64,000 bases of DNA from Halichondria panicea (taxonomy: Eukaryota; Porifera; Demospongiae; Suberitida; Halichondriidae). The position numbers and the translations under genes are program-made. Within the stretch, counting starts at the first letter, position 1; each line of letters starts with the position of its first letter. Below the pieces are notes generated by a model. It was not told the origin of the DNA. It worked only from the letters and a program-made list of their open reading frames with translations, and searched no databases. Where the stretch lies: positions 6,381,205 through 6,445,204 of the forward strand of contig NC_087378.1 in assembly GCF_963675165.1 (NCBI RefSeq), in the 5' to 3' direction. This document shows, in pieces, positions 14,124 through 61,555 of the stretch.

Positions 14124-14479
14124 ATGGCAACGTTACCCGGCAAGTCTAGACTTGCGAGTCCCGGTACCAGTGCAGCTAATACCTTTCCCAGGCATGCTAT
14201 AACAGTGATAAAAGAAGGTCGCTTATACAAACGTCAAAGAGGCACAAAGGCAACTAATCTAAAGGGTTTGAAGTTTCAGAAGAGATACTGTGTGCTCTCA
14301 CCCCACTCACTCGAGTACTATGAGAATAAAAAGGTAACTATGCTGATATAATTATATACTATATTAACTGGCAAAACATCTTCCTCCCAAATTTAATCAA
14401 GCATATTGAGATGGGTCTTAACCCTTTCCTTGCCATTCGTGAAATCTGGAACAGGAGCGTCTTTAGGTCGATCAATTAG
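14124..14479 (+). pseudogene. Array unit 1, 5' part: PH-domain exon 1 and cut exon 2
   Basis: Exon 1 (14124-14333, 70 codons) begins MATLPGKSRLASPGTS and holds the first half of a PH domain (ITVIKEGRLYKRQ, GLKFQKRYCVLSPHSLEYYE). Exon 2 begins at 14402 in phase 0 (HIEMGL) but is cut at the TTAA of 14418-14421 by the piggyBac composite. Read through, it runs into element sequence and stops at TAG 14477-14479. The remainder of exon 2 and the other exons resume at 24202. Units 2-4 show the uninterrupted exon. Confidence 0.8.
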
Positions 14480-15353
14480 TGTGGATCCGGCCTCACCACG
14501 CCTCCAAGTCATTCTATTAGTCTAGATCCGGCTAGCAATTCTAGCTGGGACTCCCAGTTCTAGCTCCTTTTGTTTAGCGTGTCAGAGACTGGGAGAAGAT
14601 GATTGGCACTCCCTGGCTCCTTTGGATGTACAGCTGTCCAGATCCCTAGAACATACCCTCCATTCTGACGAGTTATCAGTGCATAGGGTGCTTACTAGAT
14701 TCTTGCCAGCCAGTACAGTTCAAGCTACACACAGCACCGCTCAACTATTCTCTACCCCATTATCTAGCTAAATCTGGTCCAACTAGACAGCAGACACAGC
14801 TAGTTAATTCAGTAAAGCCAGGGGTAGCCCTACTTCTACGGTTGTTCAGTACCCACGGTAACAATTCCTCTGGGCTGGGCTAACTAGTTGAGCCACGCCT
14901 CCCAATTCTCAAGGCTAGGTACATGTCTCTGTCTAGCTGCTTCTTCAGCTTCTTGCTCAGTTTTGTGGCTTAGAGAAAGGCCAGCTACTCAGGGGGAAGA
15001 GTCCAGATGAAAGTCTGGCAGCCAGGTGACGTCCAAACGGTCAGTTATTCTTTCCACCAACTTTTTAATCTAGTCTAGTCCTGCTTGCACTGCTACTACT
15101 ACTGCTGCCTACTGCTGCTACTCTTCCTAGCTAGTCAAAGGTTTCTTTTTTTTTTTTTATAACTACATATGCACAAAGAGACATCAAAGCTTACATCAAA
15201 GGACACAGATTTTTAGCCTACTTGACTGATAAGGCGGTTACCTAGACTACAGTTTGTTTGTCAGGGAGGAGCTCACATACAACTTCATCTAATTCATCAT
15301 AACGATTCCTTACCCATTGTTGTAATTTCTACAACAGATTGCCAAGGAAAGAG
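14422..15353. other. Left arm of the piggyBac composite, non-coding
   Basis: No convincing ORF. It includes inverted bits such as AGCTGGGACTCCCAGTT, a CTG/CTA-rich stretch near 15085-15125, and at 15338-15357 a degraded reverse complement of the left terminal repeat (TTGCCAAGGAAAGAGATAA). The last could be a relic right end, which would make this arm an independent MITE of about 940 bp. Confidence 0.5.
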
Positions 15354-15519
15354 ATAATTACAACAGAATTTACAACAGAGTGGGTTAGGGCCTCTCATAT
15401 ACAACTGAATTCTTTATCACAATTTTATTAATCATTGAAATAATACCCCTTTCCTCCCCTCTCCAAGGCCAATTTAGACCAGGAGAGTACCATCTAACAA
15501 AAATCAGTCACACAGCACA

Positions 15520-18500
15520 TTAGCTAGCACATGTGTGTCCGATAACAGAGTGTCCTTTGCATATTCTTATGCGACAGTGGGGACATGCCATTGCAGTGTG
15601 TTGCTGCTCTCTGCTAGGGATCTTCTCCCGAACACACACTTGACAGCGCCCACGAGACACTCCGACACTATTTGCACTCACACGTGCGCCCTGTGATGGG
15701 GGGAAAACGATATTTAGACTGGCCAGACCTGAGGCACTGCTACGAGTACGTGGCACACCCAATAGACTATGAATTAGTTCCAATCGAAACCCTTTCAAAG
15801 GCATGGCCTTTGAACCCACCCTGACACAGTTGTGCCTGTATAGAATGTATGCATTATTCACACTAACGTCAAGGAATTGAAAGAAAATCCTGAACCAATA
15901 CCGCCGACACTTTCTATCGTACCCATAGGTTTTCCTCATACGCCCTGTATTGTCAACTCCTCCCATGTACATGTTATATGCAGGGAGACAGGGGGGGACA
16001 CTCTGAGAGCGTAGGGTACCGTCTTTGTGCATTCGCATTACAGTGTGGGGCATATGGTCAGGGAACACATTTGTTGCAAAGGACACAACTCTACGGTCGT
16101 TAAACATAGAGTAAGAAATATCACCAACAGTCATGGACGTATAGTCACCTTTGTCGAGTACCACATCCTTAAGACTTGCTGGGAAACCAGCAGCATTCTT
16201 CAAAATTGTGCCGACAGTAAACACATTTTGCTTAGCCAACTCTTCTATCAATGGACCGGACGTGTAAAAGTTGTCCATGTACACAACATGCTGATGACCA
16301 TAAAAAGGAGTGAGTAAACGATGGACTACATTTTTCACAAGCCCTTTCACAGCTATCTTTTTCCCAGAGGAATCGGTGAGCTTACCACTGTATACATCAA
16401 ACACACAGAGATACCCACAGCATGAACATGAGCAGCACCATACCTTGAACCCCAGTTTAACAGGCTTCTTGGGCATATGAATTTTCCCGCTTTTACGACC
16501 CTTGTACTTTATCATCATCTCATCAACGGAAAGCTCCTGACTGGGATTATACCTCATGAAGTAGTTGGCTTTAAGAGTCTCTAAAACAGTTTTTAGCTTG
16601 CTAGTTACCTTACGTGCATCAGTGATGGACGTATTGTCCTCACAGTGCAGATACCGCCATAAACTTTGGAACCTTTTGAGCGACATTACATTGCTCACAC
16701 ATTGTACACCTAAAAGGGGATCCTTGGACCAGTAGTCCGTAATTTCAGGGAGCCTATGAATGCCCATCTCTAGTACAATCCCCAAAAACACCCACAATTC
16801 GGCACTGTTTGTAGCTGACCAACCCTTAGCACCACACTGCCTAGCGTACAGGTTGGTCTGTTCGGCTATGTACTCACACAAACTATCGGGCCAAAGTAAC
16901 TTAACAAAATCTAGGCATGGAGTTACAGACGGATCAAGTTGATCGACAGGACCGACCACACCGCCAAAGACGGGGTATCTTCCTGTGGACTTAGCTTTTT
17001 GGAGTCCATTGTCCCTCGCCAGCTTCCTCCGTTTGGGAGTCGGAGCCATGCCATCGACCATTTCGTCATCATCCTCCACTGCAGCATCTGCACGGAAACA
17101 AAGCATGAATATCATTAGAGTACCACAAGAGTGCTCGCCAGTGCAGGTGGGGGACAGGCTATGAATGTCATTATGTGGGCGTACCACACGCTAGTGGTGC
17201 TATGAATATCATTAACTACTGGGGGGGGTTAGGGCGCATAGGTACAGTACAGCAGAGGAAAAGGCTCGTCCACATCAAAGGCTCGTGGGAGGAGCCCAAC
17301 AAACCACAACAACCATGAATGTCATTACGTGGGCGTACCACACGCTAGTGGTGCTATGAATATCATTAACTACTGGGGGGGGTTAGGGCACATAGGTACA
17401 GTACAGCAGAGGAAAAGGCTCGTCCCCATCAAAGGCTCGTGGGAGGAGCCCAACAAACCACAACAACCATGAATGTCATTATGTGGGCGTACCACACGCT
17501 AGTGGTGCTATGAATATCATTAACTACTGGGGGGGGGGGGGGGGTTAGGGCACATAGGTACAGTACAGCAGAGGAAAAGGCTCGTCCACATCAAAGGCTC
17601 GTGGGAGGAGCCCAACAAACCACAACAACCATGAATGTCATTACGTGGGCGTACCGCACGCTAGTGGTGCTATGAATATCATTAACTACTGGGGGGGGGG
17701 TTAGGGCACATAGGTACAGTACAGCAGAGGAAAAGGCTCGTCCCCATCAAAGGCTCGTGGGAGGAGCCCAACAAACCACAACAACCATGAATGTCATTAC
17801 GTGGGCGTACAGCACGCTAGTGGTGCTATGAATATCATTAACTACTGGGGGGGAGGGGGTTAGGGCACATAGGTACAGTACAGCAGAGGAAAAGGCTCGT
17901 CCCCATCAAAGGCTCGTGGGAGGAGCCCAACAAACCACAACAACCATGAATGTCATTACGTGGGCGTACCACACGCTAGTGGTGCTATGAATATCATTAA
18001 CTACTGGGGGGGGGGGGTTTAGGGCACATAGGTACAGTACAGCAGAGGAAAAGGCTCGTCCCCATCAAAGGCTCGTGGGAGGAGCCCAACAAACCACAAC
18101 AACCATGAATGTCATTACGTGGGCGTACCACACGCTAGTGGTGCTATGAATATCATTAACTACTGGGGGGGGGGGGGGGTTAGGGCACATAGGTACAGTA
18201 CAGCAGAGGAAAAGGCTCGTCCCCATCAAAGGCTCGTGGGAGGAGCCCAACAAACCACAACAACCATGAATGTCATTACGTGGGCGTACCACATGCTAGT
18301 GGTGCTATGAATATCATTAACAACTGGGGGGGGGGGGGTTAGGGCACATAGGTACAGTACAGCAGAGGAAAAGGCTCGTCCACATCAAAGGCTCGTGGGA
18401 GGAGCCCAACAAACCACAACAACCATGAATGTCATTACATGGGCGTACCACACGCTAGTGGTGCTATGAATATCATTAACTACTGGGGGGGGGGGGTTAG

Positions 18501-19753
18501 GGCGCATAGGTACAGTACAGCAGAGGAAAAGGCTCGTCCACATCAAAGGCTCGTGGGAGGAGCCTAACAAACCACAACAACCATGAATGTCATTACGTGG
18601 GCGTACCACACGCTAGTGGTGCTATGAATATCATTAACTACTGGGGGGGGGGGGGGTTAGGGCACATAGGTACAGTACAGCAGAGGAAAAGGCTCGTCCA
18701 CATCAAAGGCTCGTGGGAGGAGCCCAACAAACCACAACAACCATGAATGTCATTACGTGGGTGTACCACACGCTAGTGGTGCTATGAATATCATTAACTA
18801 CTCGGGGGGGGGGGGGGGGGGGGGGGGTTAGGGCACATAGGTACAGTACAGCAGAGGAAAAGGCTCGTGGGAGGAGCCCAACAAACCACAACAACCATGA
18901 ATGTCATTACGTGGGCGTACCGCACGAGTGTGGTGCTATGAATATAATTAACTACTGGGGGGGGGGGTTAGGGCACACAGGTACAGTACAGCAGAGGAAA
19001 AGGCTCGTGGAAAAGGCTCGTCCCCATCAAAGGCTCGTGGGAGGAGCCCAACAAACCACAACAACCATGAATGTCATTATGTGGGCGTACCACACGCTAG
19101 TGGTGCTATGAATATCATTAACTACTGGGGGGGGGGTTAGGGCACATAGGTACAGTACAGCAGAGGAAAAGGCTCGTCCACATCAAAGGCTCGTGGGAGG
19201 AGCCCAACAAACCACAACAACCATGAATGTCATTACGTGGGCGTACCGCACGCTAGTGGTGCTATGAATATCATTAACTACTGGGGGGGGTTAGGGCACA
19301 TAGGTACAGTACAGCAGAGGAAAAGGCTCGTCCCCATCAAAGGCTCGTGGGAGGAGCCCAACAAACCACAACAACCATGAATATCAATATGTGGGCGTAA
19401 TGCACGCGTGTGGTGCTATGAATATCATTAACAACTGGGGGTTAGGGTACAGTACAGTACTGCAGTCAAGGCGACGCCAAAAAGAGGCTCACACAATGTA
19501 GGAGGAGCCACAAAAGGCATGCACATGACGCCTCCGCCAAAAAGAGGCCACATATCGTTAGGGCATCACAATGCTGCCTCCCCAACCACTATTTAATGGT
19601 GCAATGACACAAACCTGAATCACTCTCCAGATCTGTCTCAAAATCGTCATCACTGGGCTCGTCATGGTCATAACAGACTTCCTGGTCCTCCTCAAGCTCT
19701 CTGACAGTGTGCTCAAGCTCGCTGACAGTGTCAAGGAGTCCAATCAGCTCCAT
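15520..19753 (-). CDS. piggyBac-family transposase, module A (two exons)
   Basis: DDD transposase for cut-and-paste movement into TTAA sites. Exon 1, 19753-19615 (46 codons plus one base), starts MELIGLLDTVSELEHTVREL and is very acidic. Exon 2, 17087-15520, joins in phase 1 (GAT across the junction) for 568 residues in total. Catalytic aspartates sit in ELSVDEMMIKYKGRK (about D235), VVYMDNFYTS (about D318) and MYMGGVDNTGRM (about D425). The C-terminus is a cysteine/histidine-rich zinc domain (RCQVCVREK...ACPHCRIRICKGH...HTC). A basic PKRRK may be a nuclear signal. Without splicing, the exon 2 frame runs into the intron and gains a spurious N-terminus. A minus-strand AATAAA is at 15429-15424. 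No frame damage is seen. Confidence 0.88.
17088..19614 (-). repeat. Minisatellite filling the transposase intron, module A
   Basis: About 15 units from roughly 17155 to 19445, each about 154-172 bp. Markers repeated in every unit are GAATGTCATTACGTGGGCGT, GTGGTGCTATGAATATCATT, ACTACT followed by 7-24 G then TTAGGGC, GGTACAGTACAGCAGAGG, and AAAGGCTCGTGGGAGGAGCC. Length differences come mainly from the G-tract, plus shortened units near 18840 and 19000. The remaining flanks (19450-19614) are a related GCC/GAGG-rich stretch. The whole array is intronic relative to the transposase. Confidence 0.9.
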
Positions 19754-19941
19754 TTGGATTCAAAAGTTTTGAAAAATAATTACAACAGAATTTACAACAG
19801 AGTGGGTTAGGGCCTCTCATATACAACTGAATTCTTTATCACAATTTTATTAATCATTGAAATAATACCCCTTTCCTCCCCTCTCCAAGGCCAATTTAGA
19901 CCAGGAGAGTACCATCTAACAAAAATCAGTCACACAGCACA

Positions 19942-22900
19942 TTAGCTAGCACATGTGTGTCCGATAACAGAGTGTCCTTTGCATATTCTTATGCGACAGT
20001 GGGGACATGCCATTGCAGTGTGTTGCTGCTCTCTGCTAGGGATCTTCTCCCGAACACACACTTGACAGCGCCCACGAGACACTCCGACACTATTTGCACT
20101 CACACGTGCGCCCTGTGATGGGGGGAAAACGATATTTAGACTGGCCAGACCTGAGGCACTGCTACGAGTACGTGGCACACCCAATAGACTATGAATTAGT
20201 TCCAATCGAAACCCTTTCAAAGGCATGGCCTTTGAACCCACCCTGACACAGTTGTGCCTGTATAGAATGTATGCATTATTCACACTAACGTCAAGGAATT
20301 GAAAGAAAATCCTGAACCAATACCGCCGACACTTTCTATCGTACCCATAGGTTTTCCTCATACGCCCTGTATTGTCAACTCCTCCCATGTACATGTTATA
20401 TGCAGGGAGACAGGGGGGGACACTCTGAGAGCGTAGGGTACCGTCTTTGTGCATTCGCATTACAGTGTGGGGCATATGGTCAGGGAACACATTTGTTGCA
20501 AAGGACACAACTCTACGGTCGTTAAACATAGAGTAAGAAATATCACCAACAGTCATGGACGTATAGTCACCTTTGTCGAGTACCACATCCTTAAGACTTG
20601 CTGGGAAACCAGCAGCATTCTTCAAAATTGTGCCGACAGTAAACACATTTTGCTTAGCCAACTCTTCTATCAATGGACCGGACGTGTAAAAGTTGTCCAT
20701 GTACACAACATGCTGATGACCATAAAAAGGAGTGAGTAAACGATGGACTACATTTTTCACAAGCCCTTTCACAGCTATCTTTTTCCCAGAGGAATCGGTG
20801 AGCTTACCACTGTATACATCAAACACACAGAGATACCCACAGCATGAACATGAGCAGCACCATACCTTGAACCCCAGTTTAACAGGCTTCTTGGGCATAT
20901 GAATTTTCCCGCTTTTACGACCCTTGTACTTTATCATCATCTCATCAACGGAAAGCTCCTGACTGGGATTATACCTCATGAAGTAGTTGGCTTTAAGAGT
21001 CTCTAAAACAGTTTTTAGCTTGCTAGTTACCTTACGTGCATCAGTGATGGACGTATTGTCCTCACAGTGCAGATACCGCCATAAACTTTGGAACCTTTTG
21101 AGCGACATTACATTGCTCACACATTGTACACCTAAAAGGGGATCCTTGGACCAGTAGTCCGTAATTTCAGGGAGCCTATGAATGCCCATCTCTAGTACAA
21201 TCCCCAAAAACACCCACAATTCGGCACTGTTTGTAGCTGACCAACCCTTAGCACCACACTGCCTAGCGTACAGGTTGGTCTGTTCGGCTATGTACTCACA
21301 CAAACTATCGGGCCAAAGTAACTTAACAAAATCTAGGCATGGAGTTACAGACGGATCAAGTTGATCGACAGGACCGACCACACCGCCAAAGACGGGGTAT
21401 CTTCCTGTGGACTTAGCTTTTTGGAGTCCATTGTCCCTCGCCAGCTTCCTCCGTTTGGGAGTCGGAGCCATGCCATCGACCATTTCGTCATCATCCTCCA
21501 CTGCAGCATCTGCACGGAAACAAAGCATGAATATCATTAGAGTACCACAAGAGTGCTCGCCAGTGCAGGTGGGGGACAGGCTATGAATGTCATTATGTGG
21601 GCGTACCACACGCTAGTGGTGCTATGAATATCATTAACTACTGGGGGGGGTTAGGGCGCATAGGTACAGTACAGCAGAGGAAAAGGCTCGTCCACATCAA
21701 AGGCTCGTGGGAGGAGCCCAACAAACCACAACAACCATGAATGTCATTACGTGGGCGTACCACACGCTAGTGGTGCTATGAATATCATTAACTACTGGGG
21801 GGGGTTAGGGCACATAGGTACAGTACAGCAGAGGAAAAGGCTCGTCCCCATCAAAGGCTCGTGGGAGGAGCCCAACAAACCACAACAACCATGAATGTCA
21901 TTATGTGGGCGTACCACACGCTAGTGGTGCTATGAATATCATTAACTACTGGGGGGGGGGGGGGGGGGGTTAGGGCACATAGGTACAGTACAGCAGAGGA
22001 AAAGGCTCGTCCACATCAAAGGCTCGTGGGAGGAGCCCAACAAACCACAACAACCATGAATGTCATTACGTGGGCGTACCGCACGCTAGTGGTGCTATGA
22101 ATATCATTAACTACTGGGGGGGGTTAGGGCACATAGGTACAGTACAGCAGAGGAAAAGGCTCGTCCCCATCAAAGGCTCGTGGGAGGAGCCCAACAAACC
22201 ACAACAACCATGAATGTCATTACGTGGGCGTACAGCACGCTAGTGGTGCTATGAATATCATTAACTACTGGGGGGGAGGGGGTTAGGGCACATAGGTACA
22301 GTACAGCAGAGGAAAAGGCTCGTCCCCATCAAAGGCTCGTGGGAGGAGCCCAACAAACCACAACAACCATGAATGTCATTACGTGGGCGTACCACACGCT
22401 AGTGGTGCTATGAATATCATTAACTACTGGGGGGGGGGGGGTTTAGGGCACATAGGTACAGTACAGCAGAGGAAAAGGCTCGTCCCCATCAAAGGCTCGT
22501 GGGAGGAGCCCAACAAACCACAACAACCATGAATGTCATTACGTGGGCGTACCACACGCTAGTGGTGCTATGAATATCATTAACTACTGGGGGGGGGGGG
22601 GGGGTTAGGGCACATAGGTACAGTACAGCAGAGGAAAAGGCTCGTCCCCATCAAAGGCTCGTGGGAGGAGCCCAACAAACCACAACAACCATGAATGTCA
22701 TTACGTGGGCGTACCACATGCTAGTGGTGCTATGAATATCATTAACAACTGGGGGGGGGGGGGTTAGGGCACATAGGTACAGTACAGCAGAGGAAAAGGC
22801 TCGTCCACATCAAAGGCTCGTGGGAGGAGCCCAACAAACCACAACAACCATGAATGTCATTACATGGGCGTACCACACGCTAGTGGTGCTATGAATATCA

Positions 22901-24178
22901 TTAACTACTGGGGGGGGGGGGGGGTTAGGGCGCATAGGTACAGTACAGCAGAGGAAAAGGCTCGTCCACATCAAAGGCTCGTGGGAGGAGCCTAACAAAC
23001 CACAACAACCATGAATGTCATTACGTGGGCGTACCACACGCTAGTGGTGCTATGAATATCATTAACTACTGGGGGGGGGGGGGGTTAGGGCACATAGGTA
23101 CAGTACAGCAGAGGAAAAGGCTCGTCCACATCAAAGGCTCGTGGGAGGAGCCCAACAAACCACAACAACCATGAATGTCATTACGTGGGTGTACCACACG
23201 CTAGTGGTGCTATGAATATCATTAACTACTCGGGGGGGGGGGGGGGGGGGGGTTAGGGCACATAGGTACAGTACAGCAGAGGAAAAGGCTCGTGGGAGGA
23301 GCCCAACAAACCACAACAACCATGAATGTCATTACGTGGGCGTACCGCACGAGTGTGGTGCTATGAATATAATTAACTACTGGGGGGGGGGTTAGGGCAC
23401 ACAGGTACAGTACAGCAGAGGAAAAGGCTCGTGGAAAAGGCTCGTCCCCATCAAAGGCTCGTGGGAGGAGCCCAACAAACCACAACAACCATGAATGTCA
23501 TTATGTGGGCGTACCACACGCTAGTGGTGCTATGAATATCATTAACTACTGGGGGGGGGGGTTAGGGCACATAGGTACAGTACAGCAGAGGAAAAGGCTC
23601 GTCCACATCAAAGGCTCGTGGGAGGAGCCCAACAAACCACAACAACCATGAATGTCATTACGTGGGCGTACCGCACGCTAGTGGTGCTATGAATATCATT
23701 AACTACTGGGGGGGGTTAGGGCACATAGGTACAGTACAGCAGAGGAAAAGGCTCGTCCCCATCAAAGGCTCGTGGGAGGAGCCCAACAAACCACAACAAC
23801 CATGAATATCAATATGTGGGCGTAATGCACGCGTGTGGTGCTATGAATATCATTAACAACTGGGGGTTAGGGTACAGTACAGTACTGCAGTCAAGGCGAC
23901 GCCAAAAAGAGGCTCACACAATGTAGGAGGAGCCACAAAAGGCATGCACATGACGCCTCCGCCAAAAAGAGGCCACATATCGTTAGGGCATCACAATGCT
24001 GCCTCCCCAACCACTATTTAATGGTGCAATGACACAAACCTGAATCACTCTCCAGATCTGTCTCAAAATCGTCATCACTGGGCTCGTCATGGTCATAACA
24101 GACTTCCTGGTCCTCCTCAAGCTCTCTGACAGTGTGCTCAAGCTCGCTGACAGTGTCAAGGAGTCCAATCAGCTCCAT
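19942..24178 (-). CDS. piggyBac-family transposase, module B (two exons)
   Basis: Same structure as module A: exon 1 24178-24040 and exon 2 21509-19942, 568 residues with the same catalytic aspartates and zinc tail. The start codon lies only about 23 bases from the right junction of the insertion, so no native promoter remains. Any expression would have to start in host sequence, here the middle of array unit 1 exon 2. Module A is preceded by the 3' end of module B instead of a promoter. Confidence 0.87.
21510..24039 (-). repeat. Minisatellite filling the transposase intron, module B
   Basis: Second copy of the same array, units in the same order with the same marker changes (for example the unit ending in CTCGGGG and the shortened units). 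G-tract lengths differ from module A, for example about 16 G at 17529 against about 19-20 G at 21951. Confidence 0.9.
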
Positions 24179-24201
24179 TTGGATTCAAAAGTTTTGAAAA
24201 A

Positions 24202-27200
24202 TAAGCCCAACAATACATATTTGGTTGAAGACATCAAAATAGTGGAGAAAGTGCCTCATGAAACTTTCCGAAAACCACATTGCTTTCAGGTGATAAATGT
24301 GGGATACATGCATGCATGTATATAATTGTACATAACAGATCGGAAGTAAGGAAGAGGTCATGTACTTCTGTGCTGGGTCTGAGGAACATTGTCAACTCTG
24401 GATCAATGCATTTATTAAAGGTTGCATTTGATTTATATATACATACAGAATTAAAGATTATATATTCTAATGACTTAGCTGCTTTTGAAATGAGAGAGAA
24501 CAAACGAGAGCCATCATACCACAACGGTGCTTTTGGACACACTATGCACAACAGCTGGAGTTGTTGCAAACAGAAGGACAGAAATGCTGAAGGGTGTGAG
24601 AGCAGCACGGCTTGTTCTGCCCATGTGGAACTTCAAGATGAAGATGCCGTATCTCTAGAGAGGTGACGCAACAGCTAAGCAGTGTTGTACAAGACCACTA
24701 CACTTTTTGCATGCATTAATTTTATCTTCAACAAATGCAGCCTCGAGTTCAATAAAGGAATCAATTATAAGCCTGGTCTACTTGATGCCGCCACTGACCG
24801 ACACTATTCAATTCAGAGTGCAGGTATATATGGGAGGTGATTCCTGCCAAAATGTGATGAATATTTTTTATACTGTAATGACAACCATGCATGCATTAAC
24901 ACTGTCTTACATGCATTTACACACAATAGAAAGTGGGTATGGACAATCACCAGGTATGCTGTTGAGTTATCAATTATATATAGATACCCATGCAAAACAA
25001 GTGCACCTTTTATTGTATATATAATTATAGCTATTAGTCGCCGAGGCACTGCAGTCTCAGATAGTGGTGATCAAGTTTCTAAGAGGGTATCGACTAATCT
25101 ACAAATGGATTCCAGGGATTCTGGACTTCCAGTAAGCTGGCTGTGTACATGGACTTGCATGCAGTCATTACATCATGCACATTTGTTTTGCTCAGACTTC
25201 AGCTATAATTACTGAAGAGGACCTACCGATACGTGTGAGTTAAGCCCCAACACTCTATTGTACAGGTAGCCGATAGGGGTCACCCATGCACCTCTGCTTG
25301 CCGCCAACTAATATCGAGAGCGGTAAATCAGTTACCGCCCGCGGCAAAGGGTCACCGCTCCATTTAGCTGCGAGCGGTAAATGAGTTACCGCCCGCGGCG
25401 AGGTCCAACAAATCAGTTACTGCATAATCACTCGTGCACTCGTGCTCATGCAATAACTAATACATAGTGCACTAACATTTTTGGAGATGAGTGCTTTTCA
25501 TCAATTTTAGGCTGAATCTGATCCAATACTTATCTATACGCCAAAGAACATCTTACTGTCGGAAGGGGGTTTCTCATATGCCACCACTGTGTTGTACAGA
25601 GGAGCAGATTCTGTGATTGTAGCTACAAACACTGGCAAGGTATGATCATTGACAATCCCTATGTATACCGTATATTTGCATGCATGTTTAAATGCATTTT
25701 TCTCGCATTTTATTTGACAGGTGTTCACATCAAGTGTAAATGCAATTGACCTACCAAAGTACATCATATACGACACAGACAGACAAGAAGCAGTCTCAAT
25801 CAGTGTCTGGGGCAAGTACATTGCCATAGCTTCAACAGAAATTTACTTACACAATTTGGACGATAGCAAGGGAACACAGTGTGGACGGACTCAGGTATAA
25901 TATACCAGTATCACAAAGCACTGGTTGTTTTAAGTGCCAAATAATTATTGTTTAGGACTCTACCCAGCTAGTGGCATTTAGTCCTGATGGATCCCTCTTT
26001 TCTGCAAGTAAGGGAAGAAATGTTGTGAGAATGTGGAGCAAACCAAAAGACTGGGCACACGTGAACACCTCTACAAGACCAGTCAGCACTTTCAGTGTAG
26101 CTGAAGAGGGAGAGCAAATTTTCGGGTAATATAGGACAATTATGTTTTTGTGACTACAATCAGAATTATAATTTTACTCAGCATGACCGTGAGCCCTCAT
26201 CCAAAGAACCCATGGTTAGCTGTTGTGGTCACATCTCCAAGTTCATGTGATGGTGGACATGGATATTCTGTGCATATCTACAACTATAGTAACAAACACT
26301 CTTTTCAGAGGATCGGTGAGTTGTGCAGATTTTAATCCTTAATATGCATGTCATCATTGAGTCACTTTCCTTAATTTAACAGATGCAGGACTTCACACAA
26401 GTCTAGCTTTCACTCATGATGGGCGGTAAGTAAACAATACAAAATTGTTGGTTTACTAATATAACTATAGGCACCTATTTATTGGGAATAAGCTCACCAT
26501 TAAGTGCTTAGACTTGGACAATGGAAAAGAAGATGTGTACTATACCTTCAAACGAGGTAAGTACACTATAGTGGGGCCGGGGCATATGAATATGTTTTAA
26601 ATTATAGATGGTTCTATCACAAGTCTTACCTGTTCCTCTGTTCGTCACCACCTTGCTGTCGGCTTAAGCACTGGGGAGGTCAATGTCTTTACAGGACACC
26701 CATCTGAGCCAGCTGCTGTTCCACATAGTATCCCTAATATGAAGGTAATGAAACTATAAATTATAATAATTACGTGTGATTACTGTTGTGTCAATTGTGT
26801 GTAGAGCAATGGCGCTGTGACGTCGCTTTCATACAGTAGAGATGGGATAAACATAGCTGTTGCATCTAATGATGGGAATGCTACAAGTTGGAGAGGTGTG
26901 TTTCACTTTTGCATGCTACATCTGACAGGAAATTTATATAGTATACAATTTTATACTAGGATCAAAGCCGCTAAAAGAACCAGTCATGGTACGCAAACGC
27001 CCTCTACTAGTGACCAACAAGGGTCAAACGTTTCACTCAGATGAAGATGGTTACACCATAACAGTCCCAGAGGGGGCAGTGAAAGAAGGCATCGAGATTA
27101 CACTCCACCATGGTGTAGCACCCCACAGTCCGTATGGACCCTTTGAATTTGATGAAGGAGTTCAACCAGTGTCACCCATTCTCTTATTATGTCCTCAGCC

Positions 27201-29140
27201 AGCTAACACGGTTTTTCTCAAGCCAATAGAAGTCACTTTGCCTCACTTCATAGCGTGTGAAACTCTAGAAGATTGCAATAAAAGACTGTCGTTTTCAAAA
27301 GCAAGACATGATAATTTTCGAGTTAATAACAGCTGCAAAATTTACCAGTTCGAGACGGTAACAGATGGGAATGTTGTTCATACAGTTTCCCAGGAGGAGA
27401 CAATACGATATGATGCTGCAACATTGTACACACAACACTGTTGCTTCCTCTGTATTCAAGAAGAAGTCTCTGAAGAGGACACTAGAAACGCTTGTTTCTC
27501 ACTTCATCAAATAGTTCCTCGGTATCGAAATGGGTACAACTACGAAGTTTACTACTGCCTCTCATACCAACTGGAGACTTGTAACAAGGTATAATATACA
27601 TGATGACTGTAGATGCACAAGGATGTTCATGTAAATTATGTATATGGACATTTGAAATATGTAGCAGCTTTTTTAATGATTTATACACAGCATAATGCTT
27701 TCTTCACAGACAGTTGATGAGCAGTTTCCAAACAAGGACTACATCAAACGTAGGAAGGCTGTGCTATTCGAAGGGCATCAAAATGTGTTGAGGATACAAT
27801 TCAGCACTGCAAACTTACCTGGAAATTGGGGTCTTCAGTTAGCAAACACAAGGAACCAGGTTAGACAAATACAATTAGCCGGAAGTACACATTTTATGCC
27901 TCAAACCTAGTTATATAAGCGGAACTCAACCCTAGATGCTCACGTAGGTGAGCGTCCAAGGTTGAGCTTTGCCCATGCAACACACTATAGCCCCAAACCT
28001 TGATTTTATGGACTGGCTTTTGCTATAGCTATATACCCATCTCACTTACAGATTACAGAAGGAGAACTTTGTTTCTGGGGCGATCCTATTAAGAGAGATA
28101 TTAAAGAGCTCTGCAGAATAGGGGTTTATCCACCCAGAATTCCTGTTCGTGTTACTTGTGGGGAGTTTGTGAGAGGAGGGGTGTTTACCACAATCTCGTT
28201 CTCCGGAATCTGTGGAAGAGTAGAAAGCGTTAGCAGGGATTTCAACCTTGAATTGACCAAGCCTCAACCAGCACGTGAGCTTCCATTCAGTTTTTAATGA
28301 CCTAGTTGTATAGCATGATCATCACCATGCACCCATTGTACTGTAACCTGCAGATTGTTGCCAGGACGATTAATTCATATATACATGCCTGCATAATTAT
28401 ACACATTTTAGTTGCTTCTCTCGGACTTGATGAATATGAGATTTTAAAAGACGAGTTACAAGATAAACTTTATGAAAATGCAAATACTATCAGCTGTGAA
28501 CGACTGGCTTTAGCTTTGTATTCAGAATCGTCTATTCAAAAATGCCCATACTTGGCCCAGGACAGCACAACTAGAAAGAAAATTAAATCATTTGTTTCAA
28601 TTGCAAAACCAAATGGGTGTTGTATTTCATTGAGTGAAGATGAAAACTTTCGTGCTAACTATGCGATTCTCACAGAAGCTCTCGATATAGCAGATACTAT
28701 AGATCTTCACTACACAAAAGTGATAAAAAAAGCATTAGAACTATCAAAATCCAGAAAAGGTATGTGCCATTAGTGATTTCTGCATGACTTCTCTACTGCC
28801 TATAATTATATATATACTGCGTGTAGACAAATCTGGAACGTTGACAAGACAATCACTGTCTGTTTCAACACTATCAGGTATTAATAAGGTAATAATTTAT
28901 AGAGTTTCTTGTTAGATGTATGTGTGATTAATGCAGACCCTAATCACCAAACCAATGATGATGGATCACATACTGTGAAATTGGATAGTTATGTAAGTGT
29001 GCAATACTTTCACATAAAATTATACAGAACCCCCAAATAAAGGACAAGAAATTTCTCTATAAGTTCACACTGCATTTATACAAAAAAAATTGTTACAGGC
29101 TGCAAGTACTCGTTCAAGTGATTCATCTGATTCAACTTAG
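24202..29140 (+). pseudogene. Array unit 1, 3' part: PH/Btk, WD40-like, ZU5 exons
   Basis: Continuation of the gene cut at 14421. The rest of exon 2 is 24202-24289, then exons at 24339-24420, 24479-24662, 24741-24823, 24930-24953, 25031-25131, 25196-25234, 25511-25639, 25721-25894, 25956-26125, 26182-26315, 26383-26425, 26471-26556, 26608-26744, 26805-26895, 26960-27588, 27710-27859, 28052-28274, 28412-28759, 28827-28877, 28937-28992 and 29099-29140. Every exon is intact and equal to unit 2 minus 12,107. The frame is open throughout, so the damage is the insertion alone. It might still be transcribed from a cryptic start as an N-terminally shortened protein. Confidence 0.8.
25263..25412. repeat. 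Half of a foldback element in the intron before exon 9 (unit 1)
   Basis: The sequence from GTACAGGTAGCCGATAGGGG through GAGTTACCGCCCGCGGCGAGG is the left arm of the complete foldback element seen at 49503-50112 in unit 3. The right arm is missing here and in the copy at about 37370-37519 of unit 2. Confidence 0.65.
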
Positions 29141-31003: not shown

Positions 31004-31420
31004 ATTATTATAACTTTACAGCCTGTAATGTAATAAAACAGTTTGAAAGTAATGTTGTGACAATTTTAATGCTGGTTGACAGACTATATGCCGCATTGTG
31101 CAATACAGCATATTTATATTATGTAATACAATAATATAATTACATGTACATGTGGAGCTATTTCCAATGCAGATATACCGTATAGCTATAATAGCTGGTA
31201 ATTTTATAGGATAAAAACTTCGTTTAAATTTAGTGATTATTTTGTTGAGTACAAATTTTGTTTGCTTTATTGCATGCACTGTATTGCACGCATTCCAGTA
31301 AACGGCACTTAGGTTTTCCTGGGGAAATTTTTCATCCAGGGATGGTTGCTCACGAAAATAGCGACTTTTTTTACCCCACGAGAATTACCTGCTATACAGT
31401 AGTAGTAATAGAGTGTGCTG

Positions 31421-31618: not shown

Positions 31619-31703
31619 TTCTTTTCAGATTCCTCTAAAGTTTATTTTCTTCTCCCACAAGGGAGGTAGCATGTATCCACTGATGGTTCACCACTAACAA
31701 CTC

Positions 31704-44553: not shown

Positions 44554-44603
<50 letters not shown>

Positions 44604-47600: not shown

Positions 47601-48126
47601 ATTCTGTGGTTGGCATTTTTGGTAGTTAGAGCACGGTTGGTGGTCAAAATAATTCAGCCATAGAATTTTATAATAGCTATACAACCGCTCCATGATTGCA
47701 ATACGAGTACAGCTAAGTGATTCTATAAGCTTCTAGCAATGCTATATATCTTGCAAACAAAGGCTTTATTATAGAGTAAAGGCTAGTTTTGCTTACCAGT
47801 ACATTGAAGGTCATTGCAGTCTCTCCAGAATCAGGAATAGCAAAATCTGTTCGTAGAAGGTTGCTATTCTATTTAGTAGTTAGCTCTATCTATACTGGAG
47901 CGATAGCTATTAATTGGTATAGCTGCAAGAAGCTGCAAACTACAAACTAGTTAATGCACTGTTTTATGCTCGTGCATTAACTAGTACCCGAAGTATAGAT
48001 CTACAGTACATATAATAGCACATAAATAGAAATCAGTGCCCGCGCGGGCCCATATATGCATGCATGCATGCATATTATCCCCATAATTATTTTACCCCAT
48101 GAACACATGGCATTGCAGGTACGGCA
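41248..48126. other. Intergenic DNA 3' of unit 2 and 5' flank of unit 3
   Basis: Copy of 29141-36019 at offset 12,107, with the same exon-like cluster (42479-43110), MITEs, TIR element (43811-45570), microsatellite, telomere-like tract and 5' flank. From about 46370 it corresponds to the 5' flank of the next gene unit. No additional gene is seen. Confidence 0.8.
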
Positions 48127-49502
48127 ATGTTCCCCGGCAAGTCTAGACTTGTGAGTGCCGGTACCAGTGCAGCTAATACCTTTCCCAGGCTTGCTATAAC
48201 AGTGATAAAAGAAGGTCGCTTATACAAATTAACGTCAAAGAGGCAAAAAGGCAACTAATCTAAAGGGTTTGAAGTTTCAGAAGAGATACTGTGTGCTCTC
48301 ACCCCACTCACTCGAGTACTATGAGAGTAAAAAGGTAACTATGCTGATATAATTATATACTATATTTTGTGATTAACTGGCAAAACATCTTCCTCCCAAA
48401 GTTAATCAAGCATATTGAGATGGGTCTTAGGCCCAACAATACATATTTGGTTGAAGACATCAAAATAGTGGAGAAAGTGCCTTATGAAACTTTTCGAAAA
48501 CCACATTGCTTTCAGGTGATAAATGTGGGATACCTGCATGCATGTATATAATTATACATAACAGATCGGAAGTAAGGAAGAGGTCATGTACTTCTGTGCT
48601 GGGTCTGAGGAACATTGTCAACTCTGGATCAATGCATTTATTAAAGGTTGCATTTGATTTATATAACATACAGAATTAAAGATCATAATTATATTCTAAT
48701 AACTTAGCTGCTTTTGAAATGAGAGAGAACAAACGAGAGCCATCATACCACAACGGTGCTTTTGGACACACTATGCACAACCGCTGGAGCTGTTGCAAAC
48801 AGAAGGACAGAAATGCTGAAGGGTGTGAGAGCAGCACGGCTTGTTCTGCCCATGTGGAACTTCAAGATGAAGATACCGTATCTCTAGAGAGGTGACGCAA
48901 CAGCTAAGCAGTGTCGTACAAGACCACTACACTTTTTGCATGCATTAATTTTATCTTCAACAAATGCAGCCTCGAGTTCAATAAAGGAATCGATTATAAG
49001 CCTGGTCTACTTGATGCCGCCACTGACCGACACTATTCAATTCAGAGTGCAGGTATATATGGGAGGTGATTCCCACCAAAATATGATGAATATTTTTTAT
49101 ACTGTAATGACAACCATGCATGCATTAACACTGTCTTACATGCATTTACACACAATAGAAAGTGGGTATGGACAATCACCAGGTATGCTGTTGAGTTATC
49201 AATTATATATAGATATACCCATGCAAAACAAGTGCACCTTTTATTGTATATATAATTATAGCTATTAGTCGCCAAGGCACTGCAGTCTCAGATAGTGGTG
49301 ATCAAGTTTCTAAGAGGGTATCGACTAGTCTACAAATGGATTCCAGGGATTCTGGACTTCCAGTAAGCTGCCTGTGTACATGGACTTGCATGCAGTCATT
49401 ACATCACATTAGTTTTGCTCAGACTTCAGCCATCATGATAATTACTGAAGAGGACCTACCGATACGTGTGAGTTAAGCCCCAATTATTATAACACTCTAT
49501 TG

Positions 49503-52008: not shown

Positions 52009-52718
52009 TTTTTTTTTTTTTATTTTTTTTTTTATAATAATTCAGCATATATAGCATAGGATAACACAATTAGCTAGTATAGCTAGATGTAAAGTGCATC
52101 CTAAACAGAAAATATTTAAATACACTGACAGTAACAATATCTTCTATATTGTACTTACTAACAAGTTTATTCCATAAAGTTACAGCGTGTGGGAAGAATG
52201 AGTATTGGTACATTGATGTTCGAGATCTAATTGGTACCAGGGAGAGACCATTAACTGAGCGGCTATTGTAGACAATCTCTCTTCTTTCAACCGGTGGGTT
52301 GGGAAAGTCTATCATGTCATGAAAAATTTTGTACAAGTGGCACATTTTTGCAACTACTCTTCTTGTCTCCAGACTTGTAAGGCCAGATGCTGACAGCAGT
52401 TCTTCCTGCTTTAGATCCCACTGACCCAGACACACTCTCATGGCAAATCTCTGTACTTTTTCCAGGTTTTCTATATCACTTTTATAGTGGGGACTCCATA
52501 CTTCTGAAGCATATTCCATATGTGGCCTCACAAAGCTTTTATATAGTTTTAAGAGAGTGGATGGAGATGCATTGGTTGAGAACCTTCGATAAAGTAGACC
52601 AATTAGTTTTCTTGTTTTGTTACAAATGGTAGTAATATGAGGGTGCCAGGAGAGATCATCAGATAATGTGAGACCCAGATATTTGTAATTTGGAACTTGT
52701 TGCAGCAAGTTTTAAATA
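52009..52718 (-). mobile_element. 5'-truncated non-LTR retrotransposon (RT C-terminal part)
   Basis: A minus-strand ORF at 52708-52070 codes for the thumb/C-terminal region of a Jockey/CR1-like reverse transcriptase: YKYLGLTLSDDLSWHPHI, LYKSFVRPHMEYASEVWSP and SFFPHAVTLWNKL. The plus-strand T-run at 52009-52033 is the poly(A) tail. Both flanks match the intron after the ZU5 exon in units 1 and 2, so it inserted after that unit formed. The catalytic YxDD part is absent. Confidence 0.85.
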
Positions 52719-55170: not shown

Positions 55171-58100
55171 ATGGCTACTAAGAAAACGAGAGGCTCTCAG
55201 TCTTTCCCCAGATACGCCACTAAAGGGCTGAAAGAGGGCATTCTGCACAAGCGACAAAGAGGACGAAAGACTAATGATCTGAGTGGACTGAAATTTCAAT
55301 CAAGATACTGCGTTCTCAATTTGAATCTGTTGTCATATTACAAAAGCAAAAGCAAAAAGGTAGAACTATAGCATCAGATCCTACTAAAGAGGTACTAATG
55401 TATTACTTTTCAAATAATGAAACCAATGCCACCGGTTCAGTAACCGCAGCATATACTAGTTGTAAATAGCAAGCTATCATAGTTATTTAACATACTGGTT
55501 CACTAGGTGATTTCCAGTGAATATGAGGCATATTTTACTTCCAGGGAATAATGATGGCTCATATTTTACTTCCTACAGGCACTACCGTCTTATAATTACA
55601 GCACCAGTTTTCACAAAATAATTTTATTTTACTCCAATTGAGCGCCAAGTAAATTCTGGAATTATTTTTTGCTGGTGTATAGGTAATTACTATAACACGG
55701 CCTTTAATCGAGGCTCTATACATACAACTAGTGATCTATGATAGCCTCGTGGAAACAGCTACTTTAGTACTCTACGTTCTATTGCTAAGCGCCAAACTAG
55801 AATTCTTATTCTACTTGATTCGTGCCACTGTAATTAGTGGCGCTATAATTTTAGAAGAAGATGGTTTTCAAGATTTGAATCATATTGAAAATTTGTAAAA
55901 GTAAAAGTAACAGCAATACATACAGTACAGACTGTGTATAGACTTTGTTTTGTACTGGAACTATAGCTAGGCCTAGCAGTCCTAACTAAGCTAGCTACTT
56001 ATTACATGTTCATGAGGGCAGTCAAATTCTTGTTCTGGTCAAGGCTGCACATGTGGCTCGAGCTCAGAGGTAGAGGGAGTACAAGTAGTATTATTGAACA
56101 TTGACGGCGTGACAGCAGTGCAAAACGGCAGCTGCTGATATTGGTGGGCAGGTCTGGTCAAATGTTATGACTTCCAGCAGAAAAACCCAGCTTGGGAAGT
56201 AGCTATAGCTCTCATATCAGTAACCTGACACTGTAACTTGAGTCCAACTGCATATTCTAAGGCAAGTTTGACTGTCTTCATTAACGTTCAAATGACGTTT
56301 TGCAAATCAGGTTGCCTAGTAATTACGATAATTACTAGTCAACCATAACATATTTGATACTGATTCTGCAGGATTTTGGCCACAGACCCAGCGGATCGTA
56401 TCATACTTCCAAGATCAAAATAGTGGAAACTGTACCTGATTTGACTTTTCGAAGACCGCACTGTTTCCAGGTGATTAATCCTATGTAACTACCGTATAGC
56501 GGGTAATTTTCGGGGAACAAAATATTCGTGGTTCAGCAATATTGAGACATTTCGTGGGTAATATTTTTGTGGTTGGAGCTAGCACTGGTAAGCAAGGTCG
56601 TTTCATTCGTGGGTAAAATATCGTCTTTAACCACGAAAATCATGAATATATTGCCCCACGAAAATTACCCTCTATACGGTAATTGCATTGTAGGAATGAC
56701 TTAATTATGTGTGCATGCGGTCATGCACGATTGCAAATTGATAACTTTTTTGACAGATAGGAAACGAGAAAGAAGTGATGTACTTCAGTGCAAGCTCTAA
56801 AAGAGATAGAGATGCTTGGATAGAAACTTTCAGAATTGGTAATAAAAATAACTCTATGTATAAACATAATTGTTGTTATGTCTTAATTATACAGCTGCCT
56901 TTGGACTGGGAAAGAACCAACCATTGCTGGTCTGTCATATGGGAGCTTATGGTCAAACTGGGAAAAACCAATGGAGTTGTTGCAACAAGGAGGGAAGAGA
57001 AGCTAAAGGATGTTGGGACAGCAATCCCCCTTCTGTTGACCAGAAAATGCCAGTTAAAAGAATTACATCTCCTTCTAGGGAAGATAGTTTACAGAGCATG
57101 TCTGTCCCTTTGTCTTCGCCCTACCTGTCTACTTCCCCTCAGAAGTGAGAAATTATTATTGTATGCCATTCTTGAATATAGATGCTCAATATAAAATATT
57201 TTGCTGCAACCCTTACAGTCAATATAGTGACAGTGACTCTGAGGATGACGACGAGGAAGAACAGCCTGCAACTTGTCCCGAGGAAACCTGGAATTCGAAT
57301 CAGAGCAGGCAGAGTATTGGTACGTTTCAAACTCAGAGAACTTTTATTGTATGTGGTTTACATGCATAGACAGTGGAAAGGGAGGCAGTACAAGTACACT
57401 TAATACAGTCGCTTCATCATCACCAGGTATAAAGACACTAATTCATATATTATGCTATAGACGTGTGCATGTGCCTACAGCTCCCAGTCGACAGAAGAAA
57501 GCATGGGATAAAGCACTTGTAAGCCATGCATGCGTGTTTACGTGTATATACCACAAACATGCATAATACAATGTACATTGTGTTTTTGCAGGGATCAGCC
57601 ACTATCGTGGAAGAAGACCCTTCACATGTGAGTACTCACTATTCTTATCATGCATTATTCAGTCATATAACACACATGCAGGCTCATTCTTTGACTGACA
57701 AAGTAATTCCGTTTGTCTACACGCACAAGACGACCCTACAGCCAGAGGAAGACTCCTCATACGCCACCACTGTACTATACAGAGGGGTAGATTCTGTGAT
57801 TGAAGCTACAAGTACTGGAAAGGTAAGCTGATCTGCTATATAACATGTAGTCAATTTGGTTACGATTGTAGGTATCTACATCAACTGTTAATACTGGCGG
57901 GTCACAAAAGCAAACCATTTTTGCTGGGAAAGGTGAAATTGCTGTTTCAGTTAGCATCTGGAGAAATCACATTGCTTTCGGATCTGAAGCCATTTATTTG
58001 GGGAACATCGACAGCACTGGAGTGAAGATATTGGGATCACTTAGTGTTCATAATGAGGTACTGCAACTTAAGTTATGGTATGTGTCTATTTCATTTACTT

Positions 58101-61100
58101 TTATTTTTGGAAGGTCTCACCTCAACTAGTGGCCTTCTGTCCTGATCGGTCCTTTTTCTCTGCTAGTAAGGGAGGACACCATGTGAGCATGTGGAGCAAA
58201 CGTGAAGACGGTTCACATGTGGAAGCCACAGAAAAACCAAACTGTACTCTCAAAGTCGCTGAGGATGATGATCAAATATTCAGGTATTATGGTAATAATT
58301 ATGTTTGCCATAATGTTATGAATACTTTTGCAGCTTAACTGTGAGCCCAAAGAGGTCGTGGTTAGCCATTGGTGTCACATCTTCCAACAGTGACTTTGTG
58401 TACATCTACCGTTTCAAGGATAGGTTCGTTTTCCACGGTAGGACAGAGATTGGTCAAGAATCTGGTGTGTGTCTTGCATTCACACACGACGGAGAGTAAG
58501 TTGTCTAATAATTAATCTGATTAACAAAAGCATTTTCCAATAGGTACTTGTTTGTGGGTAGTGACCTAAGGATTCAGTGTTTTAATGTAAGTGATGATCA
58601 AGCCACTAGCAGATTGGCTGACAGTGTGTTCAATCACACATTCAAGCAAGGTGACTAGTATTTCTGCCTGCATTGTTGATCATTAAAACTGTGATATACT
58701 TGTGTCATTAGATAGTTCTATCAAAAGTCTTGCCTGTTCCCCTGTTCGTCACCACCTTGCTGTTGGCTTAAGCACCGGGGAGGTCAAAGTTTTTACTGGA
58801 CACCCAAGGTTCTTGAATCATATGCCGAGTACTATGACTATTCAAGATTCAAAGGTATAATTATTGTTATTATAATAGTACTAAACTACTACTGTTGTAT
58901 TTATTGTTACTAGACACAAAGTAGCGGAGCAGTGACATCACTTTCATATAGTAGGGACGGTATGAAGACAGCTGTTGCATTCGACAAGGGGACAGTGCAA
59001 ATTTGGAAAGGTACAACTTGTGTTGTTATTAAATGGATGATAATTGCATAGTAAACGCATGATTAGCGGTAACTTTGGGGTGGGAGGTAGCCATGAATAC
59101 TGGGGTATGCATGTGCAGCATTTATCTGTTATTATTGCTTTGAATGCACTTACGTTTACTGTAAACATGCATGCTAGGTTCGAGGCCACCAGAAGAACCA
59201 AAGTTGATAAAACACAGTGTCACAGTGACAAGTAAAAGCCAGACTGTTGATGAGGATGGTTACAGCATTTTTATCCCAGAGGGGGCAGTGAAAGAAGGCA
59301 CTAAGATTACACTCCACCATGGTGTAGCACCTCACAGTCCGTATGGACCCTTTGATTTTGATGAAGGAGCTCAACCCGTGTCACCCATTATCCTACTATG
59401 TCCTGAGCCAGCTAACACGGTATTTCTCAAGCCAATAGAAGTCACTTTGCCTCACTTCATAGCGTGTGAAACGCAAGAAGATTGCAATAAACTGTCCTTT
59501 TCAAAAGCACGACACGACAATTTTCGAGTTGATAACAGCAGAAAAATTTACAAATTTGAGAAGGTAACTGATGGGAAAATGGTTCATCTTTGCCAGTATG
59601 ATCGGAAAAGCAAGATTCCACAAGGTGCAGCTACACTGTACACACAGCACTGCTGCTACATATGTATTCAAGAAAACATCTCAGAGGAGGAAACCAACAG
59701 CAAGAAAGTTTTTTCGCTAGCACAAATAGTTCCCAAACATCGAGACTATTCGAAGGAGAGTCGAGTTTACTACTGTCTCTCATACCATCTCAAGACTTGC
59801 CTCAAGGTAACTATAGTTGCTATATGGGGTTGAGCTTCCATAGCTTTTGGCTGCATGCATGTGCCTAGTCAGTAAACAGATTACCGTTGTACATAGACTG
59901 ACTCCCATTTATTACATTTAGAGTTACGAATGTCAGATGGTATACTGTCTACCTTTTTACAGTCACAAACTTTATGTAAATTAATGTGATTCTTTTATTC
60001 TAGGTACTTGAAGAACAATTCCCTGATGACTTGTATATAAAGAGTATGAAGACGGTATCATTTGAAGATGTGGGAGCCTCACAGAAAAGGGTGTTAAAAA
60101 TACAACTTCATTCGGAAAGCGGGTTAAGCCTACCTGGTGGTTGGGCTCTTCAAATGATAAATGGTGGTCAGGTTTGTGAAGCATAACCCCTTCATGTTAA
60201 ATGTCATGACTGTGTGCTGTGTATATTATAGATTGCAGAGCAAAATCTGTGCTTCTGGGATGATGAGATTCGAAGCAATATCGAAGAGTTGTGCCAAACT
60301 AAAGAATATCCACCCAAGATTCCCCTTCACGTTGTACCAGGCCAAGACCTTGTGACAGAAGGAGTCTCTACTATGGTTTCTTTCACTGGTGTTCGGATGT
60401 ATCAAAGTGAGGACACTAACGTCAAATTCATGCTGGAATTGACCTTGCGTCAGATGCCGCCACGTAATTGTAAGTTCTATACGTATAATTATATTAGGCA
60501 GTTGGGTGTACCAGTTGTTTTGAGGATGGTTTAAAATAATTATACACAACCATGCAAGTGTGCACATGCAGCACAGTGATGCCTAATCTATTGTATATAT
60601 ACATGTATGTTCTTTTTTCGTAGCCGTATCTTCTGGAAGACGTCTGTCTTCTCTCTCCTCTTCCTATACCTCCCACGAGTCTGCTTCTCCATTAATAACA
60701 ACATCTGTCAAAATCACGCCGGACTCGGTGGAAGATCTAGACCTTCAAGATCAATTTGACGACATTGCTAAGACTGTAGACTGCAAGAGACTAGCTTCGG
60801 CTTTGTTTACTGAATCCTCACCAAAAAAATGCCCATACCTGAGCGATGATTCGAAGAAAACGATCAGATCATTTCTCACAAGATCAAGGACAAAGTGCGA
60901 TACTCCAGATGAAAAATTCTGGGCAAATTACGACATACTAGTTGATGCTAATGAAATTGCTACTAAACATCCACAATACATAACAGCCGTGCAAGCTGCC
61001 TTAAATAGGGCAAGGCTAGAACTACAAAAAGGTATAATTGAATAATGTAAAATCGGTTTTGCATGGTTGTTGTCTAAGTCTAGTATTTGCAAGTTTTTTT

Positions 61101-61555
61101 TATCTGCTAGGAGACCAACAAATTATATGCTATGAATTTCACACACCCACAGATGGACTTGGAGTAAACCGATCAAAAAGAGAATCTGTTGGTACAGCTT
61201 CCGTGGTACACAAATTAGCCCCAGATAGTACGCTACATTTATCAAGTGTTTATTATCTGTAGTTGAGCTTCACTGCTGAGGATAATAGTCCACCCGTACA
61301 GGAAGCTAACCTTACACCACCACCAAGTAAGAGAAATATCAAGTCATAACAATGATAATAATGCATTTTCCACCCATTCCCAATTTAAGTGCCGCGAAGC
61401 ACCTTCCCTACAGAATATTCACAGTCTACGCCCAATGATAATCACTCCTCATTTGTAAGTTACAACTGTACATGTTTTGTGTTAAATGATGCCGTACCTG
61501 ACATTTACAGATTTTACCCTTTAAGGAACCACCAATTGCAAACCCCATATTATAA
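55171..61555 (+). CDS. PH-Btk-WD40-ZU5 protein, array unit 4 (diverged paralogue)
   Basis: Twenty-three exons: 55171-55359, 56372-56470, 56757-56838, 56895-57144, 57219-57319, 57370-57426, 57481-57518, 57592-57627, 57682-57822, 57872-58057, 58114-58283, 58334-58495, 58544-58650, 58712-58854, 58914-59010, 59178-59806, 60004-60171, 60232-60469, 60624-61031, 61153-61205, 61263-61326, 61414-61454 and 61511-61555; all phases agree, 1167 residues. PH domain (KEGILHKRQRG, KFQSRYCVLN, RDAWIETF), Btk zinc motif (CHMGAYG...WSCC...AKGC), acidic linker (SDSDSEDDDEEE), WD40-like propeller with a canonical last strand VQIWKG, ZU5 (DGYSIFIPEGAVKEG), UPA-like part, helical domain and a Pro-rich tail. Two unit 2 exons are fused here (exon 12). 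The last four exons are less certain. Confidence 0.82.
56490..56681. mobile_element. MITE with TACCGTATAG ends inside unit 4 intron 2
   Basis: TACCGTATAGCGGGTAATTT at the left and AAATTACCCTCTATACGGTA at the right are inverted repeats. The interior repeats CGTGGGTAA-type and ACCACGAAAAT-type phrases. It is 192 bp, non-coding. Confidence 0.75.

Follow-up and report, generated by a model that had tools for sequence, protein, structure and literature searches.

The genome of the sponge Halichondria panicea carries, within the 64,000-nucleotide stretch analysed here (contig NC_087378.1, G000:C2:6381205-6445204 in our numbering of the 131-Mb genome of 39 contigs; hereafter the window), a tandem array of four related units. 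The intact ones each encode a single predicted protein in which a PH domain, a Btk-type Cys/His motif, a Ser-rich linker, a WD40-like propeller, a ZU5 domain, a tentative UPA-like stretch and a helical end follow one another. We consider it probable that the array represents a single-gene family of cytosolic, lipid-recruited scaffolds with a ZU5-UPA-type signalling module, made by exon shuffling. The four units occupy positions 14124-61555, where the initial annotation had placed them, and comparison of the window with itself shows copies of one locus together with a tandem copy of 12,107 bp. When the translation of unit 4 is compared with the rest of the window, its exons are found in matching order in units 1 and 2 and incompletely in unit 3. 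The units and the parts of unit 2 are the following.

14124..14333, plus strand: unit 1, exon 1 (start of the PH domain), from sequence comparison between units
24202..29140, plus strand: unit 1, remainder of the gene starting in exon 2, no base differences from unit 2
36020..41247, plus strand: unit 2, open gene model, 23 exons, 1091 aa
48127..53994, plus strand: unit 3, broken copy with a frameshift in exon 1, propeller exons mostly absent and the ZU5 exon broken
55171..61555, plus strand: unit 4, open gene model, 22 exons, 1141 aa, final three exons tentative
36020..36769, plus strand: unit 2 exons 1-4, PH domain (aa 26-128) and Btk motif (aa 141-169), from Pfam
36848..37341, plus strand: unit 2 exons 5-8, Ser-rich, fast-evolving linker (aa 189-271), 18% identical to unit 4 over aa 173-271
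37618..39002, plus strand: unit 2 exons 9-16, WD40-like propeller (aa 272-592), from Pfam, seven blades by eye
39067..39695, plus strand: unit 2 exon 17, ZU5 domain with a phase-1 intron before and a phase-0 donor after it, from Pfam, profiles and splice-site check
39817..40381, plus strand: unit 2 exons 18-19, UPA-like stretch, tentative, from weak similarity to sister ZU5 genes
40519..40866, plus strand: unit 2 exon 20, helical C-terminal domain, from an AlphaFold model

Pfam searches with the spliced proteins of units 2 and 4 confirmed the PH, Btk, propeller and ZU5 parts of the plan that the initial annotation had ascribed to all four units. The PH domain (PF00169) was matched at E 1.8e-17 in unit 2 and 2.6e-17 in unit 4 (64.2 and 63.7 bits, curated cut-off 25.1) and ZU5 (PF00791) at E 6.9e-9 and 6.4e-8 (36.3 and 33.2 bits, cut-off 21); the initial annotation had been prepared to give up its proposal if profiles found neither, and both were found above cut-off. 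The Btk motif (PF00779) exceeds its cut-off of 24 in unit 2 (28.4 bits, E 1.5e-6), as do the Btk exons of units 1, 2 and 3 in the genome search; unit 4 gives no match at E 1, yet its His and Cys residues are conserved. A two-row PH-Btk profile ranked the PH-Btk structure of Tec (2lul) first in the PDB, at E 9.8e-11, with the alignment running across both the PH domain and the Cys/His motif. Basic residues in the first PH strands resemble those of Btk, which we take to be its lipid contacts. For the propeller, WD40 (PF00400) is above its cut-off of 27 in unit 4 (34.2 bits) and below it in unit 2 (21.7), and several Pfam propeller models match at 1e-12 to 1e-8, the majority under their own cut-offs. 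No SH2, SH3, kinase, RasGAP or ankyrin-repeat match was obtained in either protein at E 1.

Units 2 and 4 can each be spliced as one open frame without internal stops, every junction of the final models is GT-AG (exon 2 of unit 2 starts at 36301, behind a visible acceptor), and intron phases are equal at all 21 introns common to both. The models were built by hand, each of the two units guiding the other, so that their agreement is not wholly independent; the model of the paralogue described below is. The 3' end of unit 4 is uncertain, because its last exons were picked by comparison with unit 2 after an earlier version with an additional 3' exon had hit stops and been rejected. The initial annotation's count of 23 exons holds for unit 2 and not for the model of unit 4. 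One propeller intron, present in unit 2 and also in the paralogue, is absent from unit 4 and was therefore lost by it.

Over 1055 aligned residues the two proteins are identical at 512 (49%). Differences fall on codon positions 1, 2 and 3 in 385, 320 and 530 codons of the 1055, the third-position excess being as expected of coding sequence. Overall nonsynonymous divergence (dN) is 0.43 and synonymous divergence (dS) 1.25 by NG86, rough values since they are near saturation. Identity is 18% in the linker, 44% in the C-terminal exon, 46% in the UPA-like part and 50% in PH-Btk and propeller; within the ZU5 part it reaches 60% in the extension and 83% in the core.

When the whole genome was searched with unit 2, the full PH-Btk-WD40-ZU5 plan was found only at this array, although such searches score the best candidates only and do not prove absence. 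Outside the array, unit 2 matched a single PH exon, at C2:1067928, and ZU5 exons that are 27-43% identical to its own. Other Btk matches of the genome were set aside: L006 is a separate Btk-SH2-kinase gene with SH2 and kinase exons, L032 looks by eye like a RasGAP with PH-Btk, and L033 stays under the cut-off and has no similarity to the array proteins at E 0.05. A further match, L005, holds a Btk motif.

An unlinked paralogue (L001/L004, C2:1067910-1076718), which the initial annotation did not have, suggests how the combination arose. Its 20 exons encode 1061 aa in the order PH, Btk, linker, ankyrin repeats, WD40 (Pfam: PH E 4.1e-12, ankyrin repeats E 6.7e-31, WD40 71.7 bits), and its linker is acidic and Ser-rich. 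It shares the PH exon phases 0,0,1 with unit 2, and its propeller phases 2,1,2,1,0,1 are those of unit 2 exons 11-16. The paralogue ends in a short exon past a phase-1 intron after blade seven and lacks ZU5; the ZU5 exon of the array sits past the equivalent phase-1 intron. On its 3' side we noted, by eye, open reading frames resembling macro-domain and RING/TRAF-type proteins.

The other border of the ZU5 exon was examined with an alignment of 30 rows: 25 places in the genome, three exons from L002 and L003, and units 2 and 4 as the sole members of the array. Truncated L011 was dropped, leaving 29 readable rows. Ten peptides, all from the part of these 29 rows that shares one extension, led to 13 exons, the unit 2 peptide hitting three copies in the array and that of L003 two genes. 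All 13 (four in the array, nine at eight other loci) have a phase-0 GT donor at their 3' end; the peptide ends were set by the alignment, in which the next codon is Val (GTN). At L002 the post-ZU5 stretch is followed by a CARD exon above the Pfam cut-off (2.4e-7), and at L003 by a Death match under it (18.5 bits vs 22.6). L003 consists of two tandem genes that appear membrane-receptor-like by eye. Since the paralogue has the matching phase-1 intron and the ZU5 exons share their donor, the array gene looks exon-shuffled. On the simplest reading of these sequences, the array lineage would have gained the ZU5 block and lost the ankyrin repeats, though the change may have run in the reverse direction.

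ZU5 profiles found ZO-1 first in the PDB. A profile of 13 rows that we chose from the alignment did so at E 3.8e-10 and also matched ankyrins (ankyrin-3 at E 9.1e-7, others more weakly) and UNC5B (E 0.19). The ZU5 exon gave no match to plasmids. As for the UPA-like part of the initial annotation, its support is the weak similarity of exon 19 to the post-ZU5 stretch of the sister genes L003 and L002 (best E 3e-4, four loci searched). A genome search for UPA (PF17217) found none and says little, because 14 controls were equally silent.

Structure prediction, proposed at the outset as a check, gave a model of the C-terminal exon. From three rows, AlphaFold predicted six helices with a mean predicted local distance difference test score (pLDDT) of 78.3 and a predicted template modelling score of 0.72, three of the five models lying near 47. 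The best structural neighbour of this model in VIA is RIG-I CARD2 (Z 5.9, root-mean-square deviation 3.2, 87 aligned), although for helical bundles a Z below about 13 may reflect no more than a shared arrangement; the rows after it are unrelated (Z 4.8 and 4.7). The 50 VIA rows shown include a single CARD but not a death domain, a result that excludes nothing, and Foldseek returned 17 matches at E <=10, none at 0.001. The predicted domain is at most weakly CARD-like.

Several results weigh against the scaffold reading. The Btk motif of the paralogue (22.8 bits) lies slightly under the cut-off of 24, the spliced proteins do not match UPA (PF17217) at E 1, and the structure predicted for the ZU5 exon from two rows was unusable (pLDDT 37). 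The C-terminal exon matches no Pfam family at E 10 and nothing convincing among PDB sequences, and its comparison with the CARD and Death exons of the sister genes gave a probability of 0.1 or less.

We nevertheless favour the scaffold reading, which is built on the gene models, the PH, Btk, propeller and ZU5 matches, the shared intron positions and the paralogue. One transcript would cover the whole unit. The PH-Btk head would dock on a membrane phosphoinositide, the long Ser-rich linker would join it to the propeller, and the propeller would bind a partner. The ZU5-UPA-type module may pack against the helical C-terminal domain, which in turn would recruit the next protein; any switching between these states, and the output, are likewise part of the proposal. 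The suggestion of a membrane-recruited adaptor, made in the initial annotation, stands. As to origin, a PH-Btk-(ankyrin)-WD40 gene would have gained, past its last blade and via the phase-1 intron, a block of exons from ZU5 to the C-terminus, presumably the same block that other genes here combine with CARD or death-type exons.

The remaining units bear marks of disruption and copying, in keeping with the initial division into two intact and two broken members: units 2 and 4 are open, units 1 and 3 disrupted. In unit 1, exon 2 breaks off after GGGTC-TTAA and an insertion of about 9.8 kb follows, whose left end we take to be piggyBac-like. A transposase frame in the insertion matches DDE_Tnp_1_7 at E 8.8e-69 (Pfam). 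In unit 3, exon 1 carries a 4-nt insertion and the ZU5 exon has frame breaks; tblastn at E 1 detected none of exons 9-15, and of exon 16 there is a fragment only. Two further features belong to these units.

14422..24201, no strand assigned: insertion in unit 1 exon 2, beginning just past TTAA, two tandem 4.4-kb copies with piggyBac-type transposase open reading frames
52070..52711, minus strand: reverse-transcriptase-like open reading frame in unit 3, between the ZU5 exon and the next, by eye

The 4.4-kb copies (15347-19779 and 19771-24204) are 99.6% identical. Each holds a minus-strand piggyBac-type transposase open reading frame (15520-17190 and 19942-21612) and about 14 tandem repeats of 154-159 bp with a G run (17161-19441 and 21583-23866). 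The left-end 18-mer of the insertion occurs once in the window at <=3 mismatches and was not found at the right junction. In unit 3, the insertion in exon 1 can be aligned against unit 2 as TTAA, the next intron has an 8-nt insertion, and differences from unit 2 concentrate in about 300 bp (48108-48427, exon 1 and the following intron). The reverse-transcriptase-like frame has no Pfam match at E 0.1.

The remainder of unit 1 shows 0 differences from unit 2 over 4,942 bp, and the tandem copies 24202-36308 and 36309-48415 (12,107 bp) differ at three places in the first 11.9 kb, followed by an indel at about 36120. Either the duplication is very recent or the assembly has duplicated the stretch. 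The ZU5 core behaves otherwise than the rest of the gene: its dS between units 2 and 4 is 0.33 vs 1.1-2.6 in other segments, and units 3 and 4 are 91% identical there. This suggests a tract copied between units by gene conversion, strong local codon constraint being the alternative.

Much of this could be taken for a decaying, functionless array that is partly an assembly artefact, since half of the units are broken, the 12.1-kb copies are near-identical and the ZU5 core may have been converted. Units 2 and 4, however, although only 49% identical, have both remained open over >1,090 codons, dN being well below dS, and we regard decay as highly improbable. The initial term "expanding family" is nevertheless too strong for a plan found at one array, with two of four units broken and part of it a near-identical copy. 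That two adjacent genes, PH-Btk-WD40 and ZU5-UPA, were wrongly merged in our models is very unlikely as well. The paralogue does stop where the ZU5 part of the array starts, and in unit 4 an in-frame ATG lies shortly before the ZU5 acceptor; but unit 2 has no such ATG in that frame, both intact units have the identical phase-1 intron, and the 64 nt between the last propeller exon and the ZU5 exon of unit 2 can hardly accommodate the end of one gene and the start of another.

The other rival is a switch like PIDD, NLRP1 or CARD8, in which ZU5 would cleave itself and the UPA-helical fragment would stay inactive until the N-terminal sensor is removed. Excerpts of PMC3210808 describe self-cleavage of these three proteins at HFS or SFS near the ZU5 end, severely impaired in CARD8 when Phe is replaced by His, and their order of sensor, ZU5, UPA and helical domain resembles that of the array. 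At the HFS-aligned place, 22 of the 29 readable ZU5 rows have xF[S/C], 13 of them HF[S/C], in a column read by eye whose equivalence comes from sequence alignment, the PDB profile alignments ending before it. The motif of the genome (L007-L031, L002, L003) often has Cys replacing Ser. Units 2 and 4 have H-C-C, which retains the His and a possible Cys nucleophile but puts Cys in place of the anchoring Phe; L007 (H-C-G) and L002 (H-T-C) also depart from the pattern, and L021, L026 and L029 have no such motif. Pfam FIIND matched one of 13 ZU5 rows, below significance (E 0.077). The likeness of the C-terminal model to RIG-I CARD2 would fit a switch, within the limit on Z given above. The xF[S/C] motif may be a structural strand feature and is no proof of cleavage; judged from the motif, self-cleavage of the array proteins is the less likely reading, and we consider such a switch unlikely. 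Its lipid-gated form, with PH-Btk and WD40 as sensor and a ZU5-UPA lock that would process itself via Cys to free a UPA and CARD-like fragment, is somewhat more doubtful still.

Comparison with known systems finds parts of the plan in several places. Like the array proteins, Tec kinases and RASA-type RasGAPs have PH directly followed by the Btk motif; the array proteins differ in lacking matches to their SH2, SH3, kinase and RasGAP domains. UNC5, ankyrins and PIDD have the plan ZU5-UPA-death domain (excerpts of PMC5135030 and PMC3210808) and resemble the array in the succession of ZU5, a further stretch and a helical end, whereas the array has one ZU5, a tentative UPA and death fold and an unrelated N-terminal half. 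Ankyrins carry their repeats before ZU5; the array proteins have no such repeats, and the paralogue, which has them, lacks ZU5. NLRP1 and CARD8, with FIIND (ZU5-UPA) followed by CARD, share the order of ZU5, post-ZU5 part and helical end, but the array has H-C-C at the motif and its proteins have no NACHT, FIIND or CARD match. Early-branching animals have NACHT-Zu5 and NACHT-WD40 proteins, described in excerpts of PMC12909245 as expanded cytosolic families of unknown function, which likewise use ZU5 or WD40 as a module; the array proteins lack NACHT and join ZU5, WD40 and PH-Btk in one chain. The paralogue shares PH-Btk and propeller with equal intron phases, adds ankyrin repeats and lacks the ZU5 block. 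In the excerpts of the literature searched (including PMC12909245, PMC8195603, PMC9573974, PMC8260672, PMC5135030 and PMC3210808) we found no description of a PH-Btk, WD40 and ZU5 fusion, consistent with the combination having been unfamiliar at the initial annotation.

Upstream of the array, the window contains exons of an O6-methylguanine-DNA methyltransferase at 1646-2361, with two Pfam domains above cut-off, and coiled-coil open reading frames at 6588-10028, with weak FAM184 and filament-model matches under cut-off.

The array seems a clear case of a lipid-recruitment module and a module of death and junction proteins joined at an identifiable intron, while the genome still retains an unfused relative. 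On the scaffold reading, if true, phosphoinositide signals would be linked to ZU5-type complexes within one polypeptide. Should the lipid-gated switch be true instead, the many xF[S/C] ZU5 genes of this genome would amount to a large repertoire of these switches in an animal of an early-branching lineage. The ZU5 genes with PIDD-like motifs make the age of ZU5 self-cleavage testable.

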